In this document: piece by piece, positions 28,300 to 35,855 of the stretch
Layout: every line of letters starts with the position of its first letter
How positions within the stretch are numbered: the stretch's first letter is position 1
Source: Elusimicrobiota bacterium
GTDB lineage: Bacteria > Elusimicrobiota > Elusimicrobia > UBA1565 > UBA9628
Length of the DNA stretch: 64,000 nt
Assembly (NCBI GenBank): GCA_023249645.1
Contig: JAHFCF010000002.1
Span: forward strand, 62,001 to 126,000
Reading direction: 5' to 3'
Made by a program: the position numbers and the translations under genes
Notes under the pieces: model-generated
Told to the model about the DNA's origin: nothing
The model's database searches: none
What the model saw: only the letters and a program-made list of their open reading frames with translations

Positions 28300-29349
28300 T
28301 CAATACCTGAAACCCAGGCTCAGACGGTAGACTTCCCCGAGCGCCGCCATGGGTTCAAAGCCGAAGTCGAGGCTGAACTTCTTGTAGTTCACGCCGACAC
28401 CGATGGTCAGTCCGGAGAGGATGCCCAGATCCGTGGCCGCCAGGGTCTTGTAGCCGAGGCGGTAGGCCATGGAGACTTGCGGCGCCACGGGCGATGTGAA
28501 TTCAAAACCGATCTTGCCGTAGGGATTGCCGTAAGTGGGGACCGCGGCCTCCAACGCCGACAACAGCCGGCCCTGATCCAGATGCAGGTCGTAGGCGAGC
28601 CCCGCGTCCATCTCCGAAGGGAGATCCTCGAGGTCAGCGCCAAAGTTCTGCTTGGAACCCAGGTTGCGGAAAGCAAAGCTCATCCGCAATTCGTCCCAAT
28701 CCAGAGGCCGATAAAGCGCGCCGCCGTCCAAAGCGACAGCCGCCGATGAGCGGTCGTAGATCGTCTCATTGATGACTTTGATGGCCAAGCCTGCCATGAG
28801 ATGCCCGCTCCACGGCTCCAGCTCCCGCTCCAGGGGACGGTAGCTCTCGGCCAGCGCCCAGTTGTCCCTGAAATACTCGCGATCCGACTGGCGCGGATCC
28901 GGCCTGCCGAAATCATAGGCATAGGCCAGGGACACGGCCTCGCCGTGGGGGGAAAAAGTCCCGACTGATTGGTTGGTGTTGGTCACGGCCGTCAAGTCGT
29001 CCTGGGAGAACCGGGCCAACGACGCGGCCACGGTGCCATGCAAGAGGCTCACCGGCAAGGCATAGGCCGCGAAATCGTAGCGGAAGAAGCGCAGGAATTC
29101 CGAATGATCGTAGATGAAGTCTTGAGTCCTCAGGGCGGCCAGCCCCGCGGGATTCCAATAGATGGCCTCTGCCCCCTCGGCCACCGGGCCGAAAGCCTCT
29201 CCCATGCCCAAGGCCCGCGCTCCCGCGCCCAAGGTCAAGAACTGAGAGGCATTGCCGCCCGCATTTGAGGTGAAGGCAAAAACCCGGCCCGTCGCAGCCA
29301 GCCACAAGGCTGCGGCGAAAAAAGTCCTCGTCATCATGGACTTCTTCAC
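28300..29349 (-). CDS. PorV/PorQ family outer-membrane protein
   Basis: MMTRTFFAAALWLAATGRVFAFTSNAGGNASQFLTLGAGARALGMGEAFGPVAEGAEAIYWNPAGLAAL; C-terminal aromatic FRY. Confidence 0.85.
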   Translation of the reverse strand: MKKSMMTRTFFAAALWLAATGRVFAFTSNAGGNASQFLTLGAGARALGMGEAFGPVAEGAEAIYWNPAGLAALRTQDFIYDHSEFLRFFRYDFAAYALPVSLLHGTVAASLARFSQDDLTAVTNTNQSVGTFSPHGEAVSLAYAYDFGRPDPRQSDREYFRDNWALAESYRPLERELEPWSGHLMAGLAIKVINETIYDRSSAAVALDGGALYRPLDWDELRMSFAFRNLGSKQNFGADLEDLPSEMDAGLAYDLHLDQGRLLSALEAAVPTYGNPYGKIGFEFTSPVAPQVSMAYRLGYKTLAATDLGILSGLTIGVGVNYKKFSLDFGFEPMAALGEVYRLSLGFRY

Positions 29350-32300
29350 CGGATCACCACCACGCGCCGGGTCAGGCGCTGGCCTCCTCCCTCGATGACG
29401 ACCAGATAGGTCCCGCTGGCCACCTTGCCGCCGTGATCGTTCGCGCCGGTCCAAGTCGCCACGCCCGTGGAGTCAGCCGCGCCCCTCCAGAGCAGCTCTC
29501 CCGTGATCGTGTAAAGCTTGAGGCTCGCCGAAGCGGGGAGATTGGAGAACGTCAAGACACCGGCGTTGAAGCGGCCATCGGTCGATCCGATCTTCCATGG
29601 GATGGGGAAGATCTGAACGGAATCCAAGGCAGAGGCAGGGGTTACGAAAAACGGCGCGAAGGTGGAGAAGTGATTGGTCAAGGCGGTGAGGCGATGCAGG
29701 GTCGTGTCCACGGAAGTGGGAAGGAGCACCCATTGGGACGATTCGTCATCGTAACGCATGATCACCAGCGTCTTGGGATCCTTGCCCGCCGGCAGACTGG
29801 CCGGATCATAGTCCATGGTGATGGTGGCATTGCCGTTGGGCTGCAGACCTCCGGCCGCGATGGTCAATCCGACGCTCGAACCGACGGACGTGATGATCCC
29901 TTCATTGGAGACCGGGGGCGGCAGAAGATTCACGACGCTGGCATTGATGGTCACGGCCGTTCCGGTCGGCAACACTCCGGGCGGCGCCTGAAGGCCCACG
30001 GCCGTGAACGCCGCATAAGGCGGCGACAAACTCAAGGAGAGCGCCTGGCCGGCGAGCACCGTTGCTGAGGACAAGACCGCCGACCAGGTGACGCTTGAAC
30101 CCATGGCCAGGACATTGGACGCGTTGTTCCAGTTGAGCGCGCCCACGCGCAGGTAATAGGTCGTTCCATAGGAGAGACCGGCCACGGCGGCGGAGGTGGC
30201 GGCGGAACCACTCGTGATGCTCGAGTAAAGCACGCCGCCGAAGTCCGACGATGTGGCGAGATCCACCTGATAGCCCTCACAACTCGCGCTTTGGGGAGAC
30301 GACGGCAGGGCCACCCAATGCACGGTCATGCTGGCGTAGCTGACGGAGACGAACGGCGAGGACGCGGCGCTGGGCGGCACGGCCAAGGTCGCGCCGGCCC
30401 CCACATCGGCCAACGAAGAGTCCGGATTGGGGGGGGAGAGGCTTAAGGACTGAACGCGCAGATAGTAAGTCGTGTTGGCGGCCAAACCTGAGAAATCCGC
30501 CCACGTGTTCGCGGTCGTGGAGCTCAGAACCCCGCTGGCAAAAGCCGCGTCCGGGGAGATCTTGGACAGAAAAAGGGTCGGCGCCGGGTTGCCGTTGGCC
30601 GACCACGCCATGCGGATCGTGCTGACCGACACCGTGGAAACGACCGCGGAAAGGGCCGCGGCAGGCGCCGGAAGGGTGGCCGTGGCGAGCACGGCAGTGA
30701 AAGCCGTGTTGCCCCCGCTGAGATTCATAGCCGCCGCGCGCAGATAATAGCTGGTGTTGGACGCCAGACCTGTGAAGACAGCGGAGGTGTTGAGCGTGAC
30801 TGAGGCCTGGAAAACGAAGCTGAAGGCTGGATCCGTCGAAACCTGCGCCAGATATTGCGTCCCCGAGGAATTGTTCCCGGCGGTGAAACTGCCCGTGAAT
30901 CCCGAGGATCCCTGCCCGCTGAAGGGCTGGGCCAGCAGGCTCACCGGCAGGGCCAAGGTCGAAGTGGAGCCCACGGCCAGATAAGTCGCGCTCAGAGCTC
31001 CACCGTTGCCCACGGTCCAGACGCGGGCGTAATAGGCCTTGTTAGCGGCCAGCCCCGTGAACGACGCGGACACGCCCCGCGTGCGCGATGAGACAACGGA
31101 GGAATAGCCGGAGTCGGACGAGATCTCGGCCTGGAAGAGCGAACCTGAAGGGTCGACTCCGACGGACCACTGGACCGACATGCTGGAAGTCCAGACGGCG
31201 GAGAAAGGCGCGGCGGCCAAGGACGGTGCCACGCCCAAAGTCGAGACCGTGCTCGTGCTTGCCGGCGAGCCCAAGATATAAGCACGGAAGTAATACGTGG
31301 TGTTGGGCAAAAGGCTTGTGAATGTGGAGGAGAAGATGTCATTGCCTGTCTGCAATGCCGTCAGGGGGGCGAAGCTGGACATGGTGGAACAGTCCGCCTC
31401 ATAAGGCTGATTCGTGGGATTTCCATGGCGAGTCCAATTGAACACGACCGTCGATGAAGAGATGTTGGTGAAGGAGGCTTGTCCCGGCGCCGCGATCGCT
31501 TGAAGAGTCGCGGCCTTGCCCAGGGAGGCGAAATTCGCGCCCTGGGTCAGGTTCAGGGTGGCCAGACGGAGATAATAGGTGGTATTGGAGGAGAGGCCCG
31601 TGGCCACGAACTGGGAAACAGTCCGGTCCGTCGTGGTGGAATGAAAGACGATCGAGGAAAAGCCCGCGTTGACCGAGACATCGAGGATGTAGCCTTCGCA
31701 GGAAGAGGCGGCGGGAGAGGCCGGGCAGGGATTGAAGTTCACGGTCAGGCTGGTCAAGGAAGGGGTGATGGTCGGCGTGCCGACGATGGGATTGGCCAAG
31801 GTGGAGGTGGTCACGGAAACCCCGCCGGGACCCTCGCCTCCGGCATTATCGCCTTTGACGGACAGGGCATAGGTATTGTTCGCGGACAATCCTGTGCGGG
31901 TATAAGCCGTTGCGGAGACATTGGCCAAGAAAGCTGTTTGAACGATGCCGTCATAGACGTTATAGGATGTGGCGTTGGGAACGCTGCTCCAAGTCCAGGT
32001 GATGGAGCTGGTCCCGAGAGTCGCTGCGGCGAATCCGGAGGGCGCGACGATGGGGATGTCGAAGGCGTTGATCAGCGCGGTTCCCTTAAATGAGCCCCAC
32101 CCCGTGACATTGTCATAGCCCGCCCCAGCGCTATAGTGCCCGTTGCTGCCGCTGGTGACGTCGTTGAAGACGCTGGCATAGGAAGCGCCTTTGCCCAGAC
32201 TGTAAAAGGTGGGATTGGCGAATCCCACAGTCGGAGATCCGCCGACGGCGAGCTGCTCATTGAGAAGGGCGGTCCAGGACGCCCAAAGGGGCGCCGCCGC

Positions 32301-33770
32301 GCTGGTCCCTCCATACAGGTACCAGGCTCCACCGACATAAATGCCATAACCCGTGTTGGGGTCTGAATCGAGCGCCACGTCAGGGACGTTGCGCATCGTG
32401 GCTGAGGTCCCGACGCCGCTTTGCCAGCTCGGACGCCCCCAGAAGGCGCTCACACCGCCTCCGGTGGCTTCACAGGTTCCCGGCGATACGCATGAGGTAT
32501 CCCAAACCGTCTCCGCGGGAGACGAGATCGTCCCTGAAAGTGTGGTCCCACCCACGCCCGTCACATAAGGCTGGGAAGCGGGGTCGCTGACGCTGAGCGT
32601 GGAGCGGTCAGCGTAGGAGCCATTATCTCCGGCGGCCGCATAAAATGTCTGCCCCTGGGCCGCCATCTGGGCGAAGATCACGCTCTCCGCCGTCAGCATG
32701 GCCTGGCCTATATCCGTCTCATCGAGTCCCCAGGAGGTGCTCACGACCTTGGCCGTATTCTCGGATGCTATTTGCGCGAGGATGTCATAGTTGTTCTGAA
32801 CCGAATTGGCAGACGTATAAGCCAAGATATGCGCAGCGCCGGGAGCCAAAGCCATGGCCAATTCGATATCCAAGGCCACCTCTCCCATATCCGGGTCCGT
32901 ATCCGGCGTGCTCAAATCGCAGGACACACCGTTGCAGAAGTTCGACACTCCGTCCACGCTGACGAAGGTCACGGGCGTGCTCAAGCCATAGCGGCTCCGA
33001 TAAGCCTGGATATCATTGAGGCTGTAGCCATCCAGCTCCACCAGGGCGATAGTCTGGCCGGAGCCGGTGAGCGCCGTGGAACCCAAGCCATAGATGGATT
33101 TGATGTCTGCCGGAGCCAAGGTGCCTCCGGGGCCGGTCCCCGTAAATTGCGGAAGAGCCTGTCCTGCGCCTGGGACCAAGGAGCCGGATCGGATGGGCGA
33201 GGGATGGGCTCTGAGGCGGGAATGATAAATGCCGCGGGCGTTCGAAAGCCCGGCGACCGCGCCCAGGTGCTCGGCCAAGGCTGCGGGGATCGTCGGCTCG
33301 GCCTCATGCGCGTGGAAAACCTGGCCGTCGACATGCCGATAGCGGTTCAACCGGACCTCAAAAGCTTTTTCGACCCGGCTCGCGGAGCCGTGGACTTTGA
33401 TGACCAGGCTGTGCGGCTCATCCCCGTTGTCCACACTCAACCCGTGCGCCTGGGCGAAATCCTTCAGTCTCCGGCGCTTCTCCGCCAAGCCGCACTTCCG
33501 GGCGAATTCCTCTGGACTCAGATAATGCCGGCCGGCCGCAGAGGTGGACTGATAGATCTGCGCCAGCGTCTGATCCAATAGCTTCTGGTCCAGACGCACC
33601 AGGAAACTCAGCCGGATGTCTTCATCGGGGGAGACTCTGCCTAGCGGGGAAGAGCTTCTGATCTGCGGGGCGACATGCCCGTGCATAGCCACGCGCGTCT
33701 CGCCAGAGGCCGGCGATGCCAGCAGGAATCCAGACAGTAAAATGCCAAGAAAGGCTCTTGTTGTCCTCAT
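29346..33770 (-). CDS. Secreted sedolisin (S53) peptidase with propeptide, about seven FN3-like repeats and FlgD/T9SS-like C-terminal domain
   Basis: Pro-kumamolisin region (SAAGRHYLSPEEFARKCG...), GEVALDIELAMALAPGA (Glu/Asp), YGGTSAAAPLWASWTALLN (Ser); repeated 'TGLxxNTTYYLRxxxLN' units; C-term FNAGVLTFSNLPASASLKLYTITGELLWRG...ASGTYLVVIEGGGQRLTRRVVVIR. Confidence 0.9.
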   Translation of the reverse strand: MRTTRAFLGILLSGFLLASPASGETRVAMHGHVAPQIRSSSPLGRVSPDEDIRLSFLVRLDQKLLDQTLAQIYQSTSAAGRHYLSPEEFARKCGLAEKRRRLKDFAQAHGLSVDNGDEPHSLVIKVHGSASRVEKAFEVRLNRYRHVDGQVFHAHEAEPTIPAALAEHLGAVAGLSNARGIYHSRLRAHPSPIRSGSLVPGAGQALPQFTGTGPGGTLAPADIKSIYGLGSTALTGSGQTIALVELDGYSLNDIQAYRSRYGLSTPVTFVSVDGVSNFCNGVSCDLSTPDTDPDMGEVALDIELAMALAPGAAHILAYTSANSVQNNYDILAQIASENTAKVVSTSWGLDETDIGQAMLTAESVIFAQMAAQGQTFYAAAGDNGSYADRSTLSVSDPASQPYVTGVGGTTLSGTISSPAETVWDTSCVSPGTCEATGGGVSAFWGRPSWQSGVGTSATMRNVPDVALDSDPNTGYGIYVGGAWYLYGGTSAAAPLWASWTALLNEQLAVGGSPTVGFANPTFYSLGKGASYASVFNDVTSGSNGHYSAGAGYDNVTGWGSFKGTALINAFDIPIVAPSGFAAATLGTSSITWTWSSVPNATSYNVYDGIVQTAFLANVSATAYTRTGLSANNTYALSVKGDNAGGEGPGGVSVTTSTLANPIVGTPTITPSLTSLTVNFNPCPASPAASSCEGYILDVSVNAGFSSIVFHSTTTDRTVSQFVATGLSSNTTYYLRLATLNLTQGANFASLGKAATLQAIAAPGQASFTNISSSTVVFNWTRHGNPTNQPYEADCSTMSSFAPLTALQTGNDIFSSTFTSLLPNTTYYFRAYILGSPASTSTVSTLGVAPSLAAAPFSAVWTSSMSVQWSVGVDPSGSLFQAEISSDSGYSSVVSSRTRGVSASFTGLAANKAYYARVWTVGNGGALSATYLAVGSTSTLALPVSLLAQPFSGQGSSGFTGSFTAGNNSSGTQYLAQVSTDPAFSFVFQASVTLNTSAVFTGLASNTSYYLRAAAMNLSGGNTAFTAVLATATLPAPAAALSAVVSTVSVSTIRMAWSANGNPAPTLFLSKISPDAAFASGVLSSTTANTWADFSGLAANTTYYLRVQSLSLSPPNPDSSLADVGAGATLAVPPSAASSPFVSVSYASMTVHWVALPSSPQSASCEGYQVDLATSSDFGGVLYSSITSGSAATSAAVAGLSYGTTYYLRVGALNWNNASNVLAMGSSVTWSAVLSSATVLAGQALSLSLSPPYAAFTAVGLQAPPGVLPTGTAVTINASVVNLLPPPVSNEGIITSVGSSVGLTIAAGGLQPNGNATITMDYDPASLPAGKDPKTLVIMRYDDESSQWVLLPTSVDTTLHRLTALTNHFSTFAPFFVTPASALDSVQIFPIPWKIGSTDGRFNAGVLTFSNLPASASLKLYTITGELLWRGAADSTGVATWTGANDHGGKVASGTYLVVIEGGGQRLTRRVVVIR

Positions 33771-33868: not shown

Positions 33869-34543
33869 TTAATCGACTTTGGAGCCCTCGGCCGCGATGA
33901 GGCCCAAGTCGATGCCCTTGACCACGGCCTCGGTGCGGTTGCTGACCCCGAGCTTCTGGAAGATACTGTTGAGATGGTTCTTGATCGTCTTGACGCTGGA
34001 GGCCAGGGTCTTGGCGATCTCCTTGTTGGACAATCCATGACCCAGGAAGGACATGATCTTGATCTCCGTCTTGGTCAAGGCCACGATCGAGGCCTCGGCC
34101 GAGGTCGTGCCCATCTGGCGCAGACCGTCGATGAGTTTGCTCATGACCGGCTGGGGGATCATCAGGCCCTGGTTGGCGAAGGTCTTCAAAGCATTGACCA
34201 GCTCGGAGGCGGGCAGCATCTTCGAGAGATAGCCGTTGGCCCCGGCCTGGATGGCCTCCATGACGTGCGCCTCGTCCTCGTAGGAGGAGAGGATGAGCAC
34301 GTTGGTCTGCGGGCAATCGCGGTGGATCTGGCGAGTGGCCTCGATGCCGTCCATGTGGGGAAGCTTGATGTCGAGGAGGATGACGTTGGGCTTGAGCTTC
34401 TTGACCAGCCGCAGAGCCTCGACGCCGTCCTTGGCCTCTCCCACGACCTCCAGGATCCTCTCGTTTTCCAGAAGGTCCTTGATGCCTTCCCGGAAAAGGG
34501 TCTGGTCGTCGGCGATCACTACGGAAATCTTCTTTTTGGCCAT
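33869..34543 (-). CDS. NarL/LuxR-type response regulator
   Basis: ISVVIADDQTLFREGIKDLLEN...ILLDIKLPHMDGIEATRQI...LTKTEIKIMSFLGHGLSNKEIAKTLASSVKTIKNHLNSIFQKLGVSNRTEAV. Confidence 0.95.
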   Translation of the reverse strand: MAKKKISVVIADDQTLFREGIKDLLENERILEVVGEAKDGVEALRLVKKLKPNVILLDIKLPHMDGIEATRQIHRDCPQTNVLILSSYEDEAHVMEAIQAGANGYLSKMLPASELVNALKTFANQGLMIPQPVMSKLIDGLRQMGTTSAEASIVALTKTEIKIMSFLGHGLSNKEIAKTLASSVKTIKNHLNSIFQKLGVSNRTEAVVKGIDLGLIAAEGSKVD

Positions 34544-34588: not shown

Positions 34589-34661
34589 GGCGCGGTAGCT
34601 CAGGGGTTAGAGCGGGCGTTTCATAAGCGTCAGGTCGGAGGTTCGAGACCTCCCCGCGCCA
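34589..34661 (+). tRNA. tRNA-Met (anticodon CAT)
   Basis: GGCGCGGTAGCTCAGGGGTTAGAGCGGGCGTTTCATAAGCGTCAGGTCGGAGGTTCGAGACCTCCCCGCGCCA; loop TTCATAA. Confidence 0.88.
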
Positions 34662-34724
34662 CGATTTGACACTCAGGTCCTTATTTCATTAGATAGTCGT
34701 CATCCCAGTTACCGAGGAGGGCTC

Positions 34725-34907
34725 ATGGCAGAAACTCTGGTGGTCGTCAGCAAGGTCAAGAAGGTCGTGAAGGAAGCCGGTTTCAGGACAGGCGGCGACT
34801 ACATCGAAGCCCTTTCCGGGAAGATCACCGCCCTGGTCAGCGCCTCCATCGAGAAGGTCAAGGCTCAAGGCGGCAAGAAGACCCTCGGCGCCGAAGACCT
34901 GATCTAA
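34725..34907 (+). CDS. Short histone-fold protein (bacterial histone-like)
   Basis: 60 aa: MAETLVVVSKVKKVVKEAGFRTGGDYIEALSGKITALVSASIEKVKAQGGKKTLGAEDLI; short alpha1, long alpha2, 'KKTL..EDL' loop 2/alpha3. Confidence 0.75.
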   Translation: MAETLVVVSKVKKVVKEAGFRTGGDYIEALSGKITALVSASIEKVKAQGGKKTLGAEDLI

Positions 34908-34953
34908 ACATCTCTCAAGAGACCCGAAGCCTTGCACCGGGCCTTGAAGGCCC

Positions 34954-35307
34954 ATGAGCGCCCTGGTCGTCGTCTTTCTCTTCGTCCTCGTCGGCATCGC
35001 CTTCGGCGTCGGCGCTCTGGTGGCGGCTTGGCTTTTACGGCCAAGTCTCCCCTATGAGCGCAAGCTCTCGACCTACGAGTGCGGCATCACTCCCGTAGGA
35101 ACGCCTGAAGTCAAGCTCAACATCCGCTTCTACGTCTTCGCCCTGCTCTTCGTCATCTTCGACGTGGAGATCCTCTACGTGTATCCGTGGGCGGTCACGG
35201 CCCGACAGATCGGACCCGCGGCCCTCGCGGAGATGGCGATCTTTTTGGCCATCCTCTTTTTAGGTCTGCTCTATGCCTGGCGCAAGGGAGCCCTGGTGTG
35301 GGAATGA
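34954..35307 (+). CDS. nuoA: NADH-quinone oxidoreductase subunit A
   Basis: [48 protein letters not shown]. Confidence 0.95.
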
Positions 35308-35855
35308 TCCTGGACAAGTACCCGGCCGTGCTCCAGGCGGTTCCCGGCGGAAAGATCCTCCTCACCACCACGGACGATTTCATCAACCTGGGACGCAAAT
35401 ACTCGATCTGGCCCCTCACCTTCGGCCTGGCCTGCTGCGCCATCGAGATGATGGCGGCCTATGCCTCCCGGTTCGATTTCGACCGCCTGGGCGTCATCCC
35501 CAGGCCCAGCCCCCGACAGGCCGATCTGATGATCATCGCGGGGACCTTCGTCAAGAAGATGGCCGCGCCCGTGCGCGAGATCTACCACCAGATGCCCGAG
35601 CCGCGCTTCGTCATCGCCATGGGCAGCTGCGCCAACTGCGGCGGGCCGTTCCACGACGCCTATTCCGTGGTCAAGGGCGTGGACAAGGTCATCCCCGTGG
35701 ACGTCTACATCCCCGGCTGCCCGCCCCGGCCCGAGGCCCTCATCTACGGGGTCATGGAACTGCAGAAGAAGATCATGCGCATGAAGCTGGCCAAAGGCGG
35801 CGGCGCGACCCTGCAGGCTGAGAAAGGAAGCCGTGACCCGGCGGGCGGAGCGTGA
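35304..35855 (+). CDS. nuoB: NADH-quinone oxidoreductase subunit B
   Basis: [19 protein letters not shown]...[53 protein letters not shown] at 35304. Confidence 0.96.

Follow-up and report, generated by a model that had tools for sequence, protein, structure and literature searches.

The 60-residue protein encoded at 34725-34907 of the window (the whole stretch of 64,000 nucleotides that was analysed) is a bacterial histone and is related to HBb (Bd0055), a DNA-bending histone from Bdellovibrio. We put the probability at roughly 75% that this histone, which is of the HBb kind with a truncated alpha3, acts as a homodimer that bends DNA nonspecifically beside HU and is probably co-transcribed with the nuo genes. 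The features of the locus are collected in Table 1.

Table 1. Features around the histone gene (positions in the window)
Feature	Position	Strand	Basis
Histone gene, 60 aa, placed with the HBb-type alpha3 ('bacterial dimer') histones	34725..34907	+	translation, phmmer, profile, AlphaFold2, Foldseek, tree
Shine-Dalgarno sequence GAGGAGG, preceding the start codon of the histone	34714..34720	+	sequence
tRNA-Met (CAU), 62 bases upstream of the histone gene	34589..34662	+	ARAGORN
nuoA (complex I chain 3), which opens the nuo cluster, 46 bases past the histone stop	34954..35307	+	PF00507 (E 2e-35), synteny
nuoB (complex I 20 kDa subunit), next in the cluster	35307..35855	+	PF01058 (E 3e-29)
Divergent response regulator (receiver and LuxR-type HTH)	33869..34543	-	PF00072, PF00196
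Weak candidate promoter (perfect TTGACA at 34666-34671, 18 bases, TAGATA at 34690-34695)	34666..34695	+	by eye

The open reading frame translates to MAETLVVVSKVKKVVKEAGFRTGGDYIEALSGKITALVSASIEKVKAQGGKKTLGAEDLI, followed by a stop codon, and its Shine-Dalgarno sequence forms a good ribosome-binding site. The original prediction had placed a 60-residue protein between tRNA-Met and nuoA, and the translation, ARAGORN and the PF00507 match bear this out. Sequence conservation indicates that the ORF is a real gene under purifying selection: matches were found in 49 of 57 relatives, which puts the ORF far beyond chance, with an orthologue identity of 63-81%, and the 64 distinct coding sequences of the family have a median pN of 0.22 against a median pS of 0.72 (synonymous sites near saturation), with a dN/dS of ~0.04-0.35 among the closest pairs. 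The gene is single-copy in its source genome (2.27 Mb, 93% complete). Its codon adaptation of 0.72 lies mid-range among the ORFs of the window and gives no sign of high expression, as judged against a poor ribosomal reference set that is mixed with wrong-frame ORFs at 63% GC. A 102-residue ORF on the minus strand (34689-34997) is the antisense of the histone stretch and found no support, and a phage origin of the histone was rejected, there being no match in PHROGs or among 50,697 phage records.

The identity of the protein follows from sequence and predicted fold alike. A phmmer search of the PDB returned Bd0055/HBb (E 1.9e-7, a match that spans the full length of the protein), HLp (1.1e-6) and HTkC (3.7e-4), and nothing else of note; with a profile of the orthologues the E-values for the same three improved to 1.3e-12, 1.8e-9 and 4.8e-9, respectively. 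Against Pfam (E up to 1) and NCBIfam the protein itself had no match, and it stayed below the cut-offs of PF00808, PF00125 and PF09123; only a few of the 64 aligned family members reach these three Pfam models (E 0.001-0.1). The AlphaFold2 model of the monomer (64 sequences, pLDDT 88) is a histone fold with a truncated alpha3, with helices at 2-17 and 24-47 and a one-turn alpha3 at 56-58. Its top Foldseek matches are HBb (9ezz/8fvx), HLp and HTkC (probability 0.92-1.00, TM ~0.70-0.77), with eukaryotic histones ranking below them. No E-value is better than 0.01, a modest level that is common for chains this short. Together with the conserved lysines of alpha1 and the KT of L2, these matches uphold the earlier proposal of a bacterial histone, including the histone fold expected of it (for the single chain).

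Another finding, absent from the original prediction and a stronger surprise than the histone itself, was the conserved gene order of histone and complex I. In genomes that have both genes the histone lies at most 2 kb from nuoA in 33 of 36 cases, across at least eight families, and nuoA is found downstream on the same strand for 44 of the 64 distinct histones (gaps to the next gene were taken from tblastn positions). Usually a single methyltransferase is all that stands between the two, MidA/NDUFAF7-like in 29 loci (PF02636) and UbiE in 13; UbiE methylates quinones, and NDUFAF7 acts in the assembly of complex I. PF02636 had no match in the genome of the window (93% complete), though complex I is present there, so that the histone probably came to abut nuoA (gap at 34908-34953) by loss of the MidA/NDUFAF7-like gene. 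Upstream of the histone, tRNA-Met together with a divergent LuxR-type response regulator was found in 22 loci, and most of the close relatives also have tRNA-Met there. In five loci (L077, L039, L050, L063 and L082) a Rex-type redox repressor (PF06971 and CoA_binding in L077) directly precedes the histone, at the place where other lineages have tRNA-Met. The linkage is unexpected, since alpha3 histone genes were described as standing alone, as single-gene operons (Schwab et al., PMC11390915).

Such an arrangement could mean that the histone acts mainly on its own respiratory operon (nuo plus the quinone or assembly methyltransferase), as a local regulator dedicated to coupling transcription to the respiratory state, and not as a global chromatin protein. 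The lasting proximity to nuoA, the nature of the intervening methyltransferases, the Rex-type repressors and the departure from the published single-gene operons all speak for it. Nevertheless, we consider it unlikely: no close nuoA homologue was found in 26 of the 62 genomes that carry the histone, a close nuoA occurs without the histone in 31 genomes, the conserved residues are those of nonspecific backbone contacts, and an inherited gene order may last without a functional link. Across 249 genomes the co-occurrence of histone and nuoA has an odds ratio of 7, nominally strong with kinship ignored; for this reason, and because of the many exceptions either way, we claim no dependence between the two genes. 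It is likewise improbable, to our minds, that the histone is a chromatin protein built into the respiratory operon, made with complex I, and with Rex, UbiE or the NDUFAF7-like assembly factor alongside, so that the compaction of the nucleoid tracks the redox or energy state, with a grip of loop-1 arginine and lysine clamp unlike that of HBb. The genome of the window also has another nuoA (C20:95341-95631, 68 bits), more distant than the first, and therefore probably two clusters of the complex I type; in the genus that lacks the histone (g6), this second type is the only one kept.

The preferred reading, a nonspecific DNA-bending homodimer, is modelled on HBb, from which a function as chromatin protein, as was originally proposed, is a natural inference. 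Two chains of 60 residues would pair via the long alpha2 into a handshake dimer, in which the lysines of alpha1 (K10, K12 and K16), R21 of L1 and K51, K52 and T53 of L2 would clasp the backbone of the DNA across the minor groove. On the model of HBb, the dimer would bind without sequence specificity and bend the DNA, with neither tetramerisation nor wrapping, and as an accessory protein would add to HU in packing the nucleoid. Co-transcription of the gene with the nuo operon, at whose head it stands, is probable, so that the dose of the histone would vary with complex I expression. A consensus scan for a promoter of the histone's own gave no match, the candidate in Table 1 included, and as promoters the upstream regions of the family were on average no better than shuffled sequences.

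The histone does not stand in for HU. The genome of the window has one HU/IHF-type gene, and such a gene was found in 235 of the 249 Elusimicrobiota genomes surveyed and in 61 of the 62 that carry the histone, the exception being a genome that is 79% complete. The histone family itself is kept by only 62 of the 249 genomes, thus Elusimicrobiota can do without it. The 65 histone loci in named genomes are mostly from Elusimicrobiota; the others that carry a name are one from Brocadiia and four from Anoxychlamydiales.

The residues that are invariant in all 64 family members (S9, K10, K12, K16, R21, K52, T53 and D58) include the three alpha1 lysines that are conserved in the HBb group (K10, K12 and K16 in HBb numbering). 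In simulations of HBb, ten residues make most of the DNA contacts (PMC11317129), and six of these (S9, K10, K12, K16, K52 and T53) are identical in the family. The invariance of the alpha1 lysines, the KT motif and the loop-1 arginine is the pattern expected if DNA contacts have been kept. HBb of Bdellovibrio bacteriovorus (8fvx, 8cmp, 9ezz and 9f0e) has the same length, the same truncated-alpha3 fold, the N-terminal MAExLVVxSKVKK, D58 and the same net charge (+3 per chain). The family nevertheless differs from HBb in several positions. The RKT...D motif with its RD clamp, a described feature of the HBb group (the group itself being defined by sequence clustering), reads KKTLGAED in the window; the clamp Arg51 is Lys in 62 of the 64 members and Arg in two. 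L2 is one residue longer, an insertion absent from HBb, HLp, HTkC, HMfB and the chlamydial and Brocadiia sequences, and L1 is one residue shorter. Of the DNA-contacting residues of HBb, R57 is replaced by E57 (63/64; HMfB also has a Glu there) and T8 by V8. In place of N22 the family has the invariant R21 of L1, which lines up with R19, the sprocket arginine of HMfB, and also with an HTkC arginine, equivalences taken from the alignment and not from a DNA-bound structure. The window gene also differs from that of HBb in heading a nuo cluster.

Hocher et al. (PMC10627809) describe the RKTV motif as particularly well conserved across all domains, and state that bacterial histones do not conserve the sprocket arginine; with K51 in place of the clamp arginine and an invariant R21, the subfamily departs from this description on both counts. 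In view of K51, the extra L2 residue, E57 and V8, the geometry of binding may differ from that of HBb. HBb coats straight DNA in one published complex (PMC10627809) and bends DNA as a dimer in the other (PMC11317129), and the altered L1 and L2 of the family could favour either mode. A histone from Brocadiia (Planctomycetota, locus L081) has both the lysine clamp and the arginine in loop 1 that mark the family, and is without the extra L2 residue.

Sequence comparisons place the family among the 'bacterial dimer' alpha3 histones typified by HBb, as a supported subclade with its own signature. The cut of alpha3 to 3-4 residues and the shortened alpha2 that define alpha3 histones (PMC11390915) are found in the helices predicted by AlphaFold2 and in the Foldseek matches, and the clustering with Bd0055/HBb that defines the HBb group, which is exclusive to bacteria, is found with the profile and in the tree. 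In the tree, built from only 60 columns, the family groups with HBb, its nearest group, and the chlamydial histones (support 93/86) and forms a clade of its own (96/95) that includes one long-branched Brocadiia sequence. Nucleosomal histones (HMf/HTk) have a long alpha2 and a three-turn alpha3; compared with HMfB of the archaeon Methanothermus fervidus (1a7w) the alpha2 of the family is about four residues shorter, alpha3 is truncated and the clamp arginine is replaced, while the aligned L1 arginine and the KT...AED of L2 and alpha3 are common to both.

A face-to-face tetrameric histone that wraps DNA, like HLp of Leptospira perolatii (9qt0-9qt2) or HTkC of Thermococcus kodakarensis (9f2c), is a very unlikely alternative. 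Both were found by sequence (profile E 2e-9 and 5e-9) as well as by fold, share the truncated alpha2 and alpha3 with the family and resemble it in L1, HLp in its length and HTkC in its arginine (R21). However, the tetramer interface needs an asparagine and an arginine (PMC11390915; N53 and R49 in HLp), and the family lacks the former and mostly the latter, besides the clamp arginine. At the place of the asparagine (48) there is Asp or Glu in 53 of the 64 members, or also Ala, and Asn in only one, so that 63 are without it; the window histone has Q48. At the place of the arginine there is Lys44 in 57 members, the window histone among them, and Arg in seven. This argues against the tetramer, as does the grouping with HBb, and both interface residues are present in two other groups of histones from the same phylum.

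These two groups, B and C (loci L097-L110), are histone folds of similar length that, unlike the window-type family, have the motif RKTV (or RRTI) and, for the face-to-face interface, the R/N residues. Group B (RKTVRAHDF) stands next to the HLp of Leptospira in the tree (92/77) and has strong matches (E below 1e-20) in seven of the 249 genomes, and group C (RKTVRPGDL) is found near the archaeal HTkC. Several genomes carry the window-type histone (group A) together with B or C; neither was found in the genome of the window (2.27 Mb, 93% complete).

That the fold has given up DNA binding and now serves as a protein-interaction module, like the histone folds of some transcription factors, would fit the lost clamp arginine, the change of R57 to E57 and the extra L2 residue, but is hardly probable at all with every alpha1 lysine, the KT motif and the loop-1 arginine invariant over the phylum.

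Histones as such are not new to this phylum: their genes have been reported to persist in Elusimicrobia (PMC10627809), and histones of the bacterial dimer kind are on record from Elusimicrobiota (PMC11390915). The literature searched, the supplementary tables of PMC10627809 and PMC11390915 aside, yielded no description of the altered histone motif or of the position beside complex I: no paper was found that connects histones in Elusimicrobiota with NADH dehydrogenase, and nuo genes go unmentioned in the main text of PMC11390915. Bacterial histones are rare and, according to the literature searched, in-depth experimental work exists for HBb and HLp only. A phylum-wide subfamily that is off the motif described as shared by histones, with an arginine described as missing in bacterial histones, offers a direct test of which residues of L1 and L2 set bending, coating or wrapping, and its lasting place by complex I, against the published description of stand-alone genes, allows a link of chromatin to respiration to be tested.

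Two further observations concern the surroundings of the histone gene. A 15-base palindrome at 34939-34953, GGGCCTTGAAGGCCC (5-bp stem GGGCC/GGCCC, loop TTGAA), ends at the start codon of nuoA, where no Shine-Dalgarno sequence was seen, and might control the translation of nuoA. On the other side of the locus, the minus strand at 29346-33770 encodes a secreted protein of 1474 residues that resembles, by eye only, a protease of the pro-kumamolisin/sedolisin type with repeated Fn3-like segments, and a large minus-strand ORF is found at the same place in several relatives (e.g. L066 and L061).
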